64,000 nucleotides of DNA. It comes from Bacteroidota bacterium. GTDB lineage: Bacteria; Bacteroidota; Ignavibacteria; Kryptoniales; JAKASW01. Made by a program: the position numbers and the translations under genes. Position 1 is the stretch's first letter, and each line of letters begins with the position of its first letter. The DNA is taken from contig JAJYIT010000003.1 in NCBI GenBank assembly GCA_021789975.1, positions 62,001-126,000 on the forward strand, written 5' to 3'. This document shows, piece after piece, positions 29,045 through 39,564 of the stretch. Under the pieces are notes generated by a model. The model was not told where the DNA came from. It did no database searches and was given only the letters and a program-made list of their open reading frames with translations.

Positions 29045-31765
29045 ATGAAGAACAAATCATTTCTTCTACTTTCGCTCTTGTTCATAACCTATCGAACATC
29101 AGCGCTTGCACAGGGTAACGTCTACTTAGTTCTAAGTTCAGATACCGGGATCTGGGACGGACTAAACGTCGATACGTACCATGACTACTACAGGTTCGGT
29201 CTATACACAGATCCAGCGATGAATGGGTACAAAGTCATGGACCCGGCATTCAGAAACCAGATAAAGGATTCATACGGGCAAACGCTGAAAATGACCTGGT
29301 ATATGATGGGCGGAAACACGTTCCGGTACGCCACAAATACAAATGTGCCTCTCGACAATACCATGGTCTTGTACCTCATGAAGAAATATCATGGTGATGC
29401 AATTGACACATGGGGCGACGAAGTGACGCTCCATTACCACGACTGGATCTGGTCGGATTTCAATGGCGACGGCCGATACTGGTGGAACCAATCGACCAGC
29501 TTCCCGGAATTCAAAGAAGACTTCGACCTGATCATGGCACAGTTTCTACTCGAAGAAAATGTCTACCCGGTTTCTTTCAGGAGCGGTTGGCATTATATGA
29601 ATACAGAATGGCAGAACTATTTGAACGGTCTGCTCCCGTTCAGCATGCACGACGATTACCCGCACGTCCGTGCAGACACGGTCGAGCCGCTCGACAACAT
29701 CTACGACTGGTCGAAATCCGCAAAGGAGTTTGTTCCGTTTCATCCTTCTACTTCAAACTATCAGCTTCCCGGCGACGGAAAAGGATGGGATAACAGATCT
29801 ATATACATGGCATCGATGGACACAACTCTCATGGACCATGTGTTTTCGCAGGCACAAAAAGGAATCGATCAGGTAGTTTGCATTTGGGCGCACCTCCCGG
29901 AAGACAATTTCCTCGACAACATAAAGAGGATAGACCAGATCGCCCACGGCTCGGCTTCGAGATATCCCGACGTCAAATTCAGGTACTGTACTGCGGTAGA
30001 AGCGATGCAGCGCTGGATGAAGGCGACTGGCCTGCCCAAACCCAGTTTGAACTTTGGGTACGAAGAGAGCGGCGGCAAAGTGAATCTTGTCGTCACTACA
30101 AACGAGCCGATATTTCAGTCACAGCCGTTTGTTGCTGTGAAGGACCGAGACCAGCAGTACTCGATAGTCCAGTTTTCGCAGGTTGGACAAAACCAATGGA
30201 GAAGTGTGAATTCCTTCGATGCCGGGATGCTGGCAAAAGCGGGTGCGGCGGTGACCGACACAGTCGGCAACCTGGCAACGGCATTCATTAATTTCCTTCC
30301 CGACGATATCTACATCGACAACCTAGACAGCGGCTACGCCGAAGCAAGAGGCAACTGGTCGACTTCAACAACCGTCGCCTGGGGAACGAACTGGAGACAA
30401 GCGGTACTCGGACCAAACGATTCGGCGAAAGTGGTTTGGACACCGAAGATCGAAAGGTCTTGCCCTTACAGCCTTTTCGTTCAGGCCCCAAGAACATCGA
30501 ACCCGGTGACCAGTATCGGCTTCAGAATATACTCCGGTGGACAACTTGTGAATTCGGCGCGATTCGATTCGCCGATGCCTGACAGACAATGGGTGTATGT
30601 AGGGACGATGACGCTCGACTCGCTCCAGGACACCCGTGTTGAAGAAACCTTTTACTCGGACTCAACCTCGGGGGAGATGGCATCGGCAGACGTGATCAGG
30701 CTGTCCGCGGTTATCATCGACCGCCGGTTGTCTATACCGCAGAGCATGGTCGATTTCGGAACGGTAAGTCAGGACGACTCCGCATCCTTTGATCTGGAGT
30801 TGCGAAACGACGGCATAGAGTCGCTGACGGTAAGCGGAATCACCATCCGGGGGAATGATGTCACATGTTCAGCTGCCTTTCCACTCACCATACCCCCAAT
30901 GAGCAAAACCGTGTTGCCCCTCCTCTTCCGCGCAGGGAACGCAAACAGCGTGAGGGACACCCTCTACATTTTCAGCAACGACTCTCTCAACCCGGTCTAC
31001 CCTGTGGAGTATCATGCTACTCTACGGCCTTACTTTAGTATAGTAGACAATGAAGACAGTCTGCATTACAGCGAGAGAGGCGTCTGGACTTACAGTAATG
31101 CCAGGGCATATGGGCCGACGAGCCGATACGCAAATCTTCAGCAGTCACCGCCCGCATCGGCAACTTACTCAGTTGTCCTCAAGCGCACGGGAATCTATGA
31201 CATCCAGGAGATCGTGCCTAAGACAGTGAATGCCGCCATGAATGCCCTTTACGTTTTGATCATCGACGGCGTGCCTGTCGATTCTGTTTATGTTAATCAA
31301 AACACAGGTAGTGGAGACTGGGTGACGATCGCGCGGTCATTCCTTCCGGCAGGGCCAATTATCCAGTTGAAAGTAATAGATTCGGGCGAGAAGACATCGG
31401 GCGTCGTCTTGAGAGCAGACGCCGCACAATTCTCAATAGTCAAAGAAGTGACGGGGGCCGAAGGTCGTGTGGCCGATAATCTCCCGAAGGATTTCGAGCT
31501 CTCGCAAAACTATCCGAACCCGTTCAACCCGACGACAATCATCAATTACCAGTTACCAATGAACAGTCATGTGAATTTAAAAGTGTATGATGTGCTTGGC
31601 AGAGAGGTACGGACATTGGTGAATGCAAATGAGAATTCCGGAACTTATGAAATCCGATTTGATGCAGCAGGTCTTCCGAGCGGCGTGTACTTCTACAGGT
31701 TGGAGGCGATCGGGGAAAATGGCAAGCGATTCAGCTCGGTGAAGAAACTCCTTTTGATGAAGTAG
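29045..31765 (+). CDS. Secreted polysaccharide deacetylase-like protein with golvesin-like domains and type IX sorting
   Basis: A 906-residue exported protein. Signal peptide 1-23. Residues about 24-335 look like a NodB-related deacetylase fold: VLSSDTG (Asp33), TLHYHDWIW (His130, His132), FRSGWHYMN and IWAHLPEDN (His283) could form the metal and catalytic site. The assignment is by motif order, not a strong match. Residues about 422-550 are a golvesin/xanthan-lyase-like carbohydrate module (YIDNLDSGYAEARGNWST). About 556-660 is an Ig-like choice-of-anchor domain (DFGTVSQDDSASFDLELRND). A second golvesin-like unit follows (IVDNEDSLHYSERGVWTYSN). The type IX sorting domain begins LSQNYPNPFNPTTIINYQLP and ends KKLLLMK. 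It probably acts on an extracellular glycan. Confidence 0.85.
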   Translation: MKNKSFLLLSLLFITYRTSALAQGNVYLVLSSDTGIWDGLNVDTYHDYYRFGLYTDPAMNGYKVMDPAFRNQIKDSYGQTLKMTWYMMGGNTFRYATNTNVPLDNTMVLYLMKKYHGDAIDTWGDEVTLHYHDWIWSDFNGDGRYWWNQSTSFPEFKEDFDLIMAQFLLEENVYPVSFRSGWHYMNTEWQNYLNGLLPFSMHDDYPHVRADTVEPLDNIYDWSKSAKEFVPFHPSTSNYQLPGDGKGWDNRSIYMASMDTTLMDHVFSQAQKGIDQVVCIWAHLPEDNFLDNIKRIDQIAHGSASRYPDVKFRYCTAVEAMQRWMKATGLPKPSLNFGYEESGGKVNLVVTTNEPIFQSQPFVAVKDRDQQYSIVQFSQVGQNQWRSVNSFDAGMLAKAGAAVTDTVGNLATAFINFLPDDIYIDNLDSGYAEARGNWSTSTTVAWGTNWRQAVLGPNDSAKVVWTPKIERSCPYSLFVQAPRTSNPVTSIGFRIYSGGQLVNSARFDSPMPDRQWVYVGTMTLDSLQDTRVEETFYSDSTSGEMASADVIRLSAVIIDRRLSIPQSMVDFGTVSQDDSASFDLELRNDGIESLTVSGITIRGNDVTCSAAFPLTIPPMSKTVLPLLFRAGNANSVRDTLYIFSNDSLNPVYPVEYHATLRPYFSIVDNEDSLHYSERGVWTYSNARAYGPTSRYANLQQSPPASATYSVVLKRTGIYDIQEIVPKTVNAAMNALYVLIIDGVPVDSVYVNQNTGSGDWVTIARSFLPAGPIIQLKVIDSGEKTSGVVLRADAAQFSIVKEVTGAEGRVADNLPKDFELSQNYPNPFNPTTIINYQLPMNSHVNLKVYDVLGREVRTLVNANENSGTYEIRFDAAGLPSGVYFYRLEAIGENGKRFSSVKKLLLMK

Positions 31766-34114: not shown

Positions 34115-34233
34115 ATCTGCTTGCGACTTTTTCGTATTTGATGCATCAAATCGGCGAATTAAAAATGCCGGCCGTCAGGGGGAGGAGGGGCGGCTGGTAA
34201 TTCTTTCAAGAAGCAATTGGAGTGATTTGTAGT

Positions 34234-35172
34234 ATGATGATGAACGAGAAATCTGTGATGGAGCGTGTGGCAAAGATGCCCGAAGGAGTTTACTCCGCTT
34301 CCAGCAAATACTGGTGTGTCACATGCAAGCTCCTCTTCGACATCGATAAGCCGGTTTGTCCTTATATGCCGAAGATGTGCATCAACACACCGGTCCCTGT
34401 CGAGGTCATGAAGCCCGAGTCGACTGTGAGTATTGAGAAGTTCGGCCTCTTCTACCCGAAGGTGCCGCAGAAAATGATGAATTATCTTGCCGGTAGTGAA
34501 CCCGCAAAGATCGGCAGGATGTGGGCCGAAGCATACATCGATTTTTTGAAAGCCTGGCGGTTTGAATACAAGAATGAGCCTCTTCAGACTCTCAAGAGCT
34601 TCATAATCACCGTCAGCGGAAGCGAAACCGCACAGCGCGTGACAAAAGATGGCATAGTGTTCGTGCTGACAGATCTCAGTAAAGTCTGGGAAAAGAGGAA
34701 GCTCTTTCCTATACTAGGCTCCGCAGTCGAGGTCTTAAGAGACGAACTCGGAATAGAGTACAAAATTCTTTTCGATGAGATCGACATACTCGGAGAGAAA
34801 GCCACGGGAAAATACTATTGCTCGATGTGCAGAAAGTTCTTCGAGTTCTCATCCCAGCGTGATTCGGTCACCTGTCCGCTGATGCCGCAGAAGTGCGTCG
34901 CGGTTCCGCACAGCCTTGACAAGATGAGGTATTCATTGAAAGACCTGATTGCGGTTTACAGTCACACGCCTGATATCTACAAAAGGCTCATGAAGGTGCT
35001 GCCGCTGAGGGAAGGGTGGCGGGAATACCTCGCCGCGCTACTTGAAGATGAGTGGAAATTCGCAGTGATGAAGGAAGGTCTGAACTGCATCGCTTCCGAA
35101 ATCGGTCTGACCCATGAGGAGATAACATGCCTGCCCGCGGAAAACGAAAGTACGATGCAGATGGCGGGGTGA
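34234..35172 (+). CDS. Unknown protein with two repeated four-cysteine (CxxC...CPxMPxxC) sites
   Basis: About 312 residues, soluble, no signal peptide. Two copies of a Cys pattern stand out: YWCVTCKLLF then VCPYMPKMC, and YYCSMCRKFF then TCPLMPQKC. Counted from the GTG at 34222, the Cys are 32, 35, 46, 53 and 200, 203, 218, 225. Each copy fits a zinc ribbon or Fe-S site, and each is followed by a similar helical stretch (YPKVPQKMMNYLAGSEPAKI against YSHTPDIYKRLMKVLPLREG), so the protein arose by internal duplication. I do not recognise a family. The ATG at 34234 is favoured by GGAG 11 bases upstream; GTG 34222 is in frame. The NifX-like His-tailed gene follows after 180 bases. Confidence 0.75.
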   Translation: MMMNEKSVMERVAKMPEGVYSASSKYWCVTCKLLFDIDKPVCPYMPKMCINTPVPVEVMKPESTVSIEKFGLFYPKVPQKMMNYLAGSEPAKIGRMWAEAYIDFLKAWRFEYKNEPLQTLKSFIITVSGSETAQRVTKDGIVFVLTDLSKVWEKRKLFPILGSAVEVLRDELGIEYKILFDEIDILGEKATGKYYCSMCRKFFEFSSQRDSVTCPLMPQKCVAVPHSLDKMRYSLKDLIAVYSHTPDIYKRLMKVLPLREGWREYLAALLEDEWKFAVMKEGLNCIASEIGLTHEEITCLPAENESTMQMAG

Positions 35173-35354: not shown

Positions 35355-35729
35355 ATGAAATATCTTGTTGCATCAGAAGGAAGTTCGCTAGAAAGCGATG
35401 TGAGCGGTCATTTTGGAAGGGCACCGTTCTTTCTGGTTTATGATGACGAAACAAAGACGCTGCAGGCAAATGCCAACGATGGCTCGCTTGACCCGCATCT
35501 TGTGATACGCGATAACGCGAAGAGCGGCGTGAAGAAAATGATATGCGGCGGTATCGGGCCGCATGCGTATCAGATTGCAGAAAGATTCAAGGTGGAAATC
35601 TGTATCACACAAGGCATCCCGGTGAAAGAAGCGATCAGACTTGCTTCCGAAAACAAGCTCCCCGTAACCACCGGACCCACGATGCATCACCACCACGAGC
35701 ATGGCGGACACATGCATCATGAAAGCTGA
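35355..35729 (+). CDS. NifX/NifB-like (dinitrogenase Fe-Mo cofactor fold) protein with His-rich tail
   Basis: A 124-residue protein with the NifX/NafY/NifB-C fold: MKYLVASEGSSLESDVSGHF, GRAPFFLVYDDETK, a KKMICGGIGPHAYQIAERF segment and ITQGIPVKEAI. Members bind metal clusters or their precursors; many are unrelated to nitrogen fixation. The C-terminal tail HHHHEHGGHMHHES could bind nickel, zinc or another metal. The ribosome-binding site AAGGAGAG precedes ATG 35355. No nif genes occur in the window, so nitrogenase is not implied. Confidence 0.88.
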   Translation: MKYLVASEGSSLESDVSGHFGRAPFFLVYDDETKTLQANANDGSLDPHLVIRDNAKSGVKKMICGGIGPHAYQIAERFKVEICITQGIPVKEAIRLASENKLPVTTGPTMHHHHEHGGHMHHES

Positions 35730-36422: not shown

Positions 36423-39152
36423 TTAGGAACAACCGCTGGTGGAACCGCAGTTCAGGCATTTATAGCAAGAACCGTTTCGTATCATAATAGATCCGCATTC
36501 ATGACACGGAGGGGCATCCGCCTGTTCCTGGAACACTTTCTTCTCTGTCTGTTCAAGCGAGATGCTGAACTCCCTTTTCTCATCAGCTTTCGAATCGGCA
36601 GCGATCGAATCCACGATGACCGAGGCAGGCTGGTCTTCCCTTGGTAAAAACTTCAACCCCATCCACCTGAATATGTAATCAAGCACAGATTTAGCAATGG
36701 GGATTTCCTTGTTGTTAGTGAATCCGGACGGCTCGAACCTCATGTGACTGAACTTATCGACGAGCACTTTTAGTGGCACACCGTACTGCAAAGCCAGCGA
36801 GATGGCAGTCGCAAATCCGTCCATCAATCCGCTTATAGTCGATCCCTCTTTGGACATGGTGATGAATATCTCGCCTGGATTGCCATCCTCATACAACCCG
36901 ACGGTAATATATCCCTCGTGTCCACCGATGCTGAATTTATGCGTAACCGCCCGTCTCTCGTCCGGGAGTCTGTGCCGCATCACCGTTGGCTGGACGACGG
37001 GCTTACCGTCCGATTTTGTTTCGTCTTTCTTAGTGCTGAGGGGTTGCGTACGCTTCGATCCATCCCGGTAGACGGCGATTGCTTTCAGCCCGATCTTCCA
37101 CGCCTCGATATAGGCCTGCTCGATATCTTTAAGCGTCGCATCTGTCGGGAGGTTGACTGTTTTGGAGATCGCACCCGACAGGAACGGCTGGACCGCAGCC
37201 ATCATCTTGATGTGTCCCATATAGTGGATTGATCGGGTACCGTTAACTGCCCTGAACGCGCAATCGAATATCGGCAGGTGCTTTTCCTTGAGATGCGGGG
37301 CGCCGTCGACAGTGCCATTGTCGTCTACATACTTTACTATCTCGTCGACCTGGGCGGGAGTGTAACCTATCGTCTTCAATGCAAGCGGAACAGTATTGTT
37401 TACTATCTTGATGTATCCGCCGCCGACAAGCTTCTTATACTTGATGAGCGCAATATCCGGCTCGACACCGGTTGTATCGCAATCCATCATGAACCCGATA
37501 GTTCCTGTAGGGGCAAGCACCGATATCTGCGAGTTCCGATAACCGTATTCCTTCCCGATCGTCAGTGCGTCATCCCATACCTTTGTCGCAGCTTCGGTAA
37601 GTGATGTCGGTATCAGAACGGAATCTATCTTATCGACGTGCGCCCGGTGTTTTCGAATTACACCCAGCATCGGTTCGCGATTCGCTTCGTACCCTTCGAA
37701 CGGGCCGATGGTCTTCGCAATGAGAGCACTCTGGCGATATCCACGCCCCGTCATTAGTGCAGTAATGCCACCTGAGTACGCACGGCCTGCGTCACTATCG
37801 TAAGGCATGCCGAGGGACATCAGCAAAGCTCCGAGGTTGGCATAGCCGATGCCAAGGGGTCTGTATGCGTGGCTATTCTTTTCAATGGCCTTGGTCGGAT
37901 AGCTCGCATTGCCGACGATTATCTCCTGAGCAGTTATGGTAATATCAACTGCGTGCATGAATTCCTCAACGTCGAACGAGCCGTCTTCCTTTCTGAACTT
38001 CATAAGGTTAAGAGATGCAAGGTTGCAGGCACTGTCATCCAGAAACATGTATTCACTGCAAGGATTCGAGGCGTTGATCGGCGCGGTGTTCGGACAAGTA
38101 TGCCAATTGTTGACCGTAGTATGGAATTGCATACCGGGGTCGCCGCTAATCCAGGCCGCTCCGGCAATCTCATTCATAAGGTCGCGGGCGCGATAGGTTC
38201 CGGCCGTCTTTCCGTCCATTACATTCTTCGTGTTCCACTCTTTGTCCTCAAGAACGGCCTTCATAAAGTCATCGGATGCTCGAACACTATGATTGGCATT
38301 CTGGAACTGAACGGAGTCATACGCGCCGCCGGGAACGTTGAACCCAGGATCGTATCCTGTCTCGATCAGCGCCCACGCCTTTTTCTCTTCTTCGGCTTTG
38401 CTCTTTATGAAATCCATAATGTCCGGGTGATCGGCGTTCAGTATGACCATCTTGGCGGCGCGGCGGGTCTTCCCTCCCGATTTTATAACACCCGCAAAGG
38501 AATCGAAGCCGCGCATAAAGGAGACGGGGCCGGATGCCGTGCCGCCTCCCGAGAGATTTTCTCTGGATGAACGCAGGCTGGAAAAATTAGTACCTGTGCC
38601 GCTGCCCCATTTGAACAGCATCCCCTCGGTCTTTGCCAGATCCAAAATGGACTCCATGGTATCCCTGACGGAGTTGATAAAGCATGCCGAGCATTGCGGC
38701 TTTTCCTCAATCCCGACGTTAAACCAGACCGGGCTGTTAAATGACACATACTGGTTCACGAGAAGATATGTCAGCTCATCGTAAAAAGCGGCCGCGTCGC
38801 CGGTCGAGGCAAAATAACCGCCTTTAATCCCCCACGAAGTGAAAGTACGTGCAACACGCTCAACCAGTTGCTTTACGCTTTGCTCCCTTTCGGGCGTCCC
38901 TAGTTGGCCGTGAAAGTATTTCGACACTACGACGTTAGTCGCGGTCATACTCCAAAAGTCCGGCACTTCAACATCATCTTGCTTGAAGATGACATCACCC
39001 TTCTCGTTTGCGATCAGGGCTGTCCTCTTTTCCCAATTGATATCGTCAAAGGGATGAACACCTTCTTTGGTGAAATGCCTTCGAACTGATAAACCACCCC
39101 ACTTTGATTCAGCCCTCGTATCCTCGGATACAGAGACGTCATTGTATCCCAT
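36423..39152 (-). CDS. nrdJ: Adenosylcobalamin-dependent (class II) ribonucleotide reductase
   Basis: About 909 residues, a single-chain B12-dependent reductase making deoxynucleotides irrespective of oxygen. Marks: SFNSPVWFNVG and CSACFINSV early in the chain, KWGSGTGTNFSSLRSSRENL, the NPCSEYMFLDDSACNLASL active-site loop, SVLAPTGTIGFMMDCDTTG, MMAAVQPFLSGAISKTVNLP, and a C-terminal Cys-rich tail (CHECGSIMIRNGSCYKCLNC) that shuttles reducing equivalents. The start is ATG 39152 because GGGAGG lies seven bases upstream; TTG 39158 is in frame but less likely. No cobalamin riboswitch is evident upstream. Terminator follows the gene. Confidence 0.96.
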   Translation of the reverse strand: MGYNDVSVSEDTRAESKWGGLSVRRHFTKEGVHPFDDINWEKRTALIANEKGDVIFKQDDVEVPDFWSMTATNVVVSKYFHGQLGTPEREQSVKQLVERVARTFTSWGIKGGYFASTGDAAAFYDELTYLLVNQYVSFNSPVWFNVGIEEKPQCSACFINSVRDTMESILDLAKTEGMLFKWGSGTGTNFSSLRSSRENLSGGGTASGPVSFMRGFDSFAGVIKSGGKTRRAAKMVILNADHPDIMDFIKSKAEEEKKAWALIETGYDPGFNVPGGAYDSVQFQNANHSVRASDDFMKAVLEDKEWNTKNVMDGKTAGTYRARDLMNEIAGAAWISGDPGMQFHTTVNNWHTCPNTAPINASNPCSEYMFLDDSACNLASLNLMKFRKEDGSFDVEEFMHAVDITITAQEIIVGNASYPTKAIEKNSHAYRPLGIGYANLGALLMSLGMPYDSDAGRAYSGGITALMTGRGYRQSALIAKTIGPFEGYEANREPMLGVIRKHRAHVDKIDSVLIPTSLTEAATKVWDDALTIGKEYGYRNSQISVLAPTGTIGFMMDCDTTGVEPDIALIKYKKLVGGGYIKIVNNTVPLALKTIGYTPAQVDEIVKYVDDNGTVDGAPHLKEKHLPIFDCAFRAVNGTRSIHYMGHIKMMAAVQPFLSGAISKTVNLPTDATLKDIEQAYIEAWKIGLKAIAVYRDGSKRTQPLSTKKDETKSDGKPVVQPTVMRHRLPDERRAVTHKFSIGGHEGYITVGLYEDGNPGEIFITMSKEGSTISGLMDGFATAISLALQYGVPLKVLVDKFSHMRFEPSGFTNNKEIPIAKSVLDYIFRWMGLKFLPREDQPASVIVDSIAADSKADEKREFSISLEQTEKKVFQEQADAPPCHECGSIMIRNGSCYKCLNCGSTSGCS

Positions 39153-39564
39153 CAACAATCCTCCCTTCTATATTGAAATGAATGCCAGTAAAGTACTGGG
39201 TCGCACGTTAACTCATTTGCCCAGAAACGCGATCATGAACCCTACACTTCAAGCCGATTGGTTCGGATTCCCCTTGCAGAGGTATGATTCATAAGGTAGG
39301 GAACTCCTAGTCCTCGTTTCCAAACACAACGTACATGTCAAGCAAAATCGCCAGAAAAACAGTTGATTAGTCCTGTTGCTCTCAACCAAGAAAGAGCAAG
39401 GAATCGGCTTTCAAATTATTGCGGTGTTAGAGGAAAGTCAAGAAATATAGAGCAAGAATTGACATCGACTCAAGGTCTGTTTGGTGTTTCGCTAAATTCC
39501 GAAATTCGCTCTTCCGTTTCCTGAACGAAAGACGGCAGTATGTGTATCCCTTCTATTCCATGCC
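39153..39564. other. Intergenic region upstream of nrdJ and the Rrf2 operon
   Basis: About 410 bases between divergent genes; it must hold the nrdJ promoter and perhaps regulatory sites. I found no B12 box, NrdR box or FNR palindrome by eye. Confidence 0.45.

Follow-up and report, generated by a model that had tools for sequence, protein, structure and literature searches.

The window analyzed here, a stretch of 64,000 nucleotides, carries a 312-residue open reading frame in which two units rich in invariant cysteine and methionine positions lie on either side of an alpha/beta core (Table 1). An earlier note, made from the letters alone, had described an open reading frame with two copies of a CxxC...CPxMPxxC motif at this place, and both the frame and the copies were present there. 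A ribosome-binding site precedes the frame, which is certainly coding. In comparison with seven homologs from the host genus, the gene showed saturated synonymous divergence (pS 0.74 to 0.81) and pN of 0.09 to 0.14, and in the less diverged pair L013-L015 dS was 1.16 and dN 0.049. Since synonymous sites are saturated and dN is about 0.1, the gene is under strong purifying selection. On inspection, no signal peptide or membrane segment was seen in the protein, which is soluble and proposed to be cytosolic. Two further reading frames of the window, characterized by reading, are included in the table.

Table 1. Features of the locus, with positions counted from the first letter of the window
Feature	Position	Strand	Description
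Large secreted protein	29045-31765	+	C-terminal end resembles a sorting signal for type IX secretion, NYPNPFNP... (by reading)
26-bp element, degenerate copy	34123-34148	+	GCATC(C/T)TTT-N10-GGCATCA
GC-rich leader hairpin	34167-34200	+	-18.4 kcal/mol for the folded leader piece; loop TCAGGGG recurs in the genus
Ribosome-binding site	34219-34222		GGAG
312-residue protein	34234-35172	+	Alpha/beta core between two Cys/Met units
Unit 1	34297-34491	+	Residues 22-86; YWCxTCK..F....P.CPYMxxxCIN and helix pair EKFGLFYPKxPQ; invariant alignment columns, unit alignment
Core domain	34411-34803	+	Residues 60-190; helices, then alpha-beta-beta-alpha-beta (predicted); overlaps the unit 1 helix pair
Unit 2	34801-35007	+	Residues 190-258; GxYxCxxCxxxFEF...CPLM(P/A)QKC and helix pair
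Nitro_FeMo-Co domain protein	35355-35729	+	Downstream; His-rich tail (HHHHEHGGHMHHES); Pfam E 1.9e-12
Long open reading frame	36423-39158	-	Resembles a vitamin B12-dependent ribonucleotide reductase; Cys-rich tail at the C-terminus (by reading)

The 26-bp element recurred with exact spacing in seven other members of the genus (L010-L016), about 100 to 150 bp before the start, and nowhere else in the 685 kb searched, a partly redundant sequence set rather than whole genomes. It is a putative operator or promoter. In the leader hairpin, three of the five consensus pairs showed two-sided change, and the folding z-scores were mild (0.04 to -2.5), giving weak statistical support; Rfam had no match to a known riboswitch in the leader.

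The first unit reads C28-x2-C31-x10-C42-P-Y-M45-P-K-M-C49 and the second C196-x2-C199-x14-C214-P-L-M217-P-Q-K-C221, the general form being C-x2-C-x(10/14)-C-P-x-M-x3-C in two copies of about 65 residues. The same cysteine spacing had been claimed for both halves; it is exact within CxxC and within CPxMPxxC, but the gap between these half-motifs is 10 residues in one unit and 14 in the other. When profiles of residues 18-90 and 186-260 were compared by hhalign, the N-terminal and C-terminal units aligned over 70 columns, including the helices after the Cys/Met motif, with 96% probability and P 1.4e-9, compared to P 0.19 for the control with the second profile reversed. Judged from the sequences, the internal repeat is real, and the similar helices noticed earlier after each motif align as well, IEKFGLFYPKVPQKMMNYL pairing with LKDLIAVYSHTPDIYKRLMKVL. 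All eight cysteines, both methionines, and the proline after the third cysteine were invariant in the 16-member alignment, as were GLFYPK, KSF, and the Q-R of an ETAQR stretch, and the second proline of CPxMP was replaced by A, T, or S in some members. Across the aligned homologs, both units have CPxM-x3-C as the second half-motif, except for CPYM-x2-C in one homolog. A literature search for the peptide CPLMPQKC gave no match.

No significant match to the protein was obtained in Pfam, NCBIfam, PHROGs, or PDB sequences, in agreement with its earlier description as unrecognized, and the family appears from these searches to be an undescribed bacterial one, with parts resembling known kinds and an unusual motif containing methionine. 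No known zinc-ribbon family, a match to which would argue against a new kind of site, exceeded its Pfam cut-off. Zn_ribbon_19 (PF14369) matched all 16 members at E values up to 10, with a sub-threshold best of 0.043, and scored 11.0 bits against a cut-off of 30.8; PF11682 scored 9.8 against 24. Of the two knuckles that define a zinc ribbon, CxxC and CPxC, which in such ribbons lie on beta-hairpins and hold zinc tetrahedrally, the first is present, with strands predicted at the CxxC pairs in the full-length model (residues 25-27/34-36 and 192-196/201-205), and the second is replaced by CPxM-x3-C. The alignment of the unit profile with the ribbon of archaeal RNA polymerase subunit P was not significant (E 0.2) and placed the methionine opposite the fourth cysteine of the ribbon. 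The unit is read here, as an inference, as probably zinc-ribbon-like, with a second knuckle CPxM and an extra cysteine four residues later.

A zinc or Fe-S site in the units, as the earlier note had suggested, is plausible in view of the invariance, the predicted strands, and the neighboring genes. The copper-type site using methionine that it had also raised is only a possibility and, as an explanation of the protein, highly improbable, the least likely of those considered. The methionine between the third and fourth cysteines is invariant throughout the alignment, in the first unit as in the second, as such a site would require, but it is not needed, because the cysteine four residues on is equally invariant and four cysteines per unit suffice. 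Moreover, the identified neighbors concern nickel, ABC-3 metals, Fe-S, and iron (Fur/VIT1), and no copper gene was recognized among the neighbors examined, the substrate of one ArsP_1 permease being unestablished here.

The scan of 84,980 species genomes, one pass with short exact peptide patterns, returned 16 loci. They belonged to the host genus (Bacteroidetes metagenome-assembled genomes), Tindallia, two loci of the Edwardsbacteria kind, a Thermoleophilia and a Myxococcales metagenome-assembled genome, WOR-3, two Chloroflexi (one Thermoflexales), and Marinitoga, the source genomes being mostly metagenome bins in which single assignments could be wrong. The alignment of 16 members spans about eight phyla, and the homologs were 38 to 85% identical to the window protein, with 76 to 85% in seven other genomes of the genus, where 8 of 13 genomes are carriers, and 38 to 58% outside it. 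Profile sampling, each sample being centered on an already known carrier, found the gene in 4 of 10 Edwardsbacteria and 4 of 38 Petrotogales (the order of Marinitoga), and in 1 of 400 Chloroflexota, 1 of 391 Clostridia, and 1 of 147 WOR-3 genomes, the last three samples yielding no additional carrier. A search for single-unit relatives with the unit profile in 395 genomes of the phylum gave, outside the genus, weak chance-like matches only (best E 0.003 per genome). By these sequence comparisons the family is rare, patchily spread, and strongly conserved, and the rare, patchy distribution suggests horizontal transfer; a search for carriage of the gene by phages or plasmids had no match. In Marinitoga lauensis (L025, 4986-5848; also L034 and L035) the homolog is interrupted, with each unit in a frame of its own, and three other genomes of the order have it intact, which points to a frameshift or sequencing error rather than a split gene. 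The apparent second copy in genome G009 was a fragment at a contig edge.

The full-length model (mean pLDDT 88.5, pTM 0.88) predicts an alpha/beta domain between the units, and with Foldseek the whole model had no match in PDB or viral structures with E under 0.001. The core domain folded alone with AF2 reached pLDDT 88.1, and VIA-align related it to the TRAPP chains 2cfh_C (Z 6.3, 111 residues, 4.0 A), 6aq3_D (Z 6.1, 114 residues, 3.6 A), 7b6d_A (Z 5.1, 114 residues), and 7u05_F (Z 5.0, 120 residues), all Z values being below 8 and near those of unrelated rows, and Foldseek giving no match to the core at E under 0.001. TRAPP/Bet3 chains were the only natural structures in the top rows to span the whole core; most others cover the alpha-beta-beta-alpha-beta half, and designed proteins also cover much of the domain. 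A TRAPP/Bet3-like fold of the core, which would have helices packed against a twisted antiparallel sheet of four strands, is thus a weak lead from modeling and not proof.

Prokaryotic V4R domains share the TRAPP fold and are thought to bind hydrophobic ligands (PMC2253512), and in the V4R regulator DmpR a zinc site formed by Cys, Glu, Cys, and Cys lies beside the phenol pocket (PMC7264223). The protein might accordingly be a purely structural zinc protein, its units bracing a TRAPP/V4R-like core that binds a small hydrophobic molecule or a partner protein, as V4R regulators do. This alternative, which the whole-core TRAPP/Bet3 alignments also favor, is possible, although doubtful in view of the Z values. 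Furthermore, a profile-profile test against 36 V4R proteins, drawn from relatives and from Chloroflexota, gave a probability of 0.1 for the core and 1.6 for the full protein, on which V4R membership was rejected, and PF02830 (V4R) had no match in the 16 members. Residues 60-190 of the window protein hold no cysteine and so offer no counterpart of the DmpR zinc ligands; other lineages have one conserved core cysteine (SGCE). As a separate observation, V4R-domain proteins are encoded in six of the eight genus genomes with the gene (G000:C79, G002, G003, G005, G010, and G012; L057-L062) and in none of the five without it, which could be clade history, and where read (L057, L060, and L061) they are of the sigma-54 activator type.

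The Nitro_FeMo-Co protein follows the gene in all seven genus loci where that side could be read. In MrpORP the related Di-Nase domain carries a bound Fe-S cluster (PMC6345978), so that metal chemistry is plausible in this partner. On the other side, ABC-3 permease and ATPase genes, divergent where strands were read, were present in six of the eight genus genomes, the window genome and G005 having no such transporter beside the gene, and one genus genome adds NikR (NikR_C, E 3e-26) and a TonB receptor. In the Chloroflexi locus L052, an acetyl-CoA synthase/ferredoxin operon, the gene is preceded by an old-yellow-enzyme-type flavoprotein (by reading), acetyl-CoA synthase (ACS_CODH_B_C, E 1.4e-94), and a small protein with two ferredoxin-type cysteine clusters (by reading); it is directly followed by a methyltransferase-MOSC protein and, further on, by a metallo-beta-lactamase-fold protein, MinD-ferredoxin ATPases, and FeS_assembly_P. 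Acetyl-CoA synthase was rejected as an obligate partner, being present in 3 of 37 genomes tested and absent from 34, 20 of which carry the gene. Elsewhere, VIT1 and Fur lie two and three genes downstream (L021), an ArsP_1/Band_7 permease adjoins the gene (L024), and a QmoC/HdrC-like Fe-S membrane protein (by reading) and DsrE lie upstream (L020). No obvious metal gene was adjacent in Edwardsbacteria, Tindallia, or Marinitoga.

These neighbors bear on two further explanations. An Fe-S protein, in which each C-x2-C...C-x6-C would hold a cluster and the clusters or electrons would be carried to ferredoxin-linked enzymes, is consistent with the Nitro_FeMo-Co partner in the genus and with the Fe-S genes of L052, but neither Pfam nor NCBIfam gave an Fe-S family match, and strands at CxxC suit zinc ribbons better, so that we consider it quite unlikely. 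To our knowledge, the cysteine spacing of the units resembles no ferredoxin motif. A redox switch, in which the CxxC pairs would switch reversibly to disulfides, or release metal when oxidized, and so signal redox or oxygen stress, is unlikely too. Besides the invariance of these pairs and the neighbors in L020, the cysteines of the V4R domain of the methanogen regulator MsvR, which affect its redox-dependent DNA binding (PMC3729527), argue for such a switch; no DNA-binding domain was recognized in the window protein, and a simple disulfide pair leaves the CPxM...C half of the units unexplained.

Taken together, the neighbors are suggestive, but no proof, of a function in metal handling (nickel, zinc, or Fe-S clusters, for example). 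Anaerobes commonly have metal and Fe-S genes, and the links seen here could be due to chance. Against a metal role, the neighbors differ between phyla and several lineages have no adjacent metal gene.

Our preferred reading, held tentatively and with somewhat less than even confidence, is a cytosolic metalloprotein family of anaerobes that would act as a metal-handling or metal-sensing accessory factor, with two zinc-ribbon-like sites on a rigid TRAPP/V4R-like core. CxxC on a beta-hairpin would form the first knuckle and CPxM...C the second, the methionine taking the position usual for the fourth cysteine of CPxC. The two sites, which arose by duplication, would flank the core and bind a soft metal ion, Zn2+ or Ni2+, or an Fe-S species, and the metal, or a conformational signal, could be passed to partner proteins that act in the uptake of metal or the maturation of metalloenzymes. 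The more specific proposal, that two mixed Cys/Met sites (CxxC + CPxM + C) on this scaffold make the protein a new kind of metal carrier or sensor serving the nickel or Fe-S metalloenzymes of anaerobes, methionine being a true ligand, is improbable. The interest lies in an undescribed family, deeply conserved and yet patchy, whose ribbon-like motif holds a ligand-like invariant methionine. Should the family handle nickel or Fe-S clusters, metalloenzyme maturation in anaerobes would gain a component, and the family would test whether the TRAPP/V4R fold has served metal traffic.

Among known systems, MrpORP and the Nitro_FeMo-Co (Di-Nase) proteins are linked to the family through gene neighborhood only, in the genus and through the MinD-ferredoxin ATPases of L052, no sequence similarity being found. 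The likeness to TRAPP/Bet3 and V4R proteins (PF02830; DmpR, PoxR, and MsvR) lies in the predicted order of helices and strands in the core; it differs from V4R proteins in that no sequence relationship to them could be detected, in the absence of the V4R zinc ligands from the core, and in the extra Cys/Met units on both sides. With zinc ribbons (archaeal Rpo12 and PF14369) it shares the Y-x-C-x2-C...CP knuckles, the predicted strands at the first knuckle, and a weak alignment over the whole motif. Unlike these ribbons, whose second knuckle is CPxC, it scores under the curated cut-offs and has CPxM, followed four residues later by an additional invariant cysteine, as well as a conserved pair of helices.
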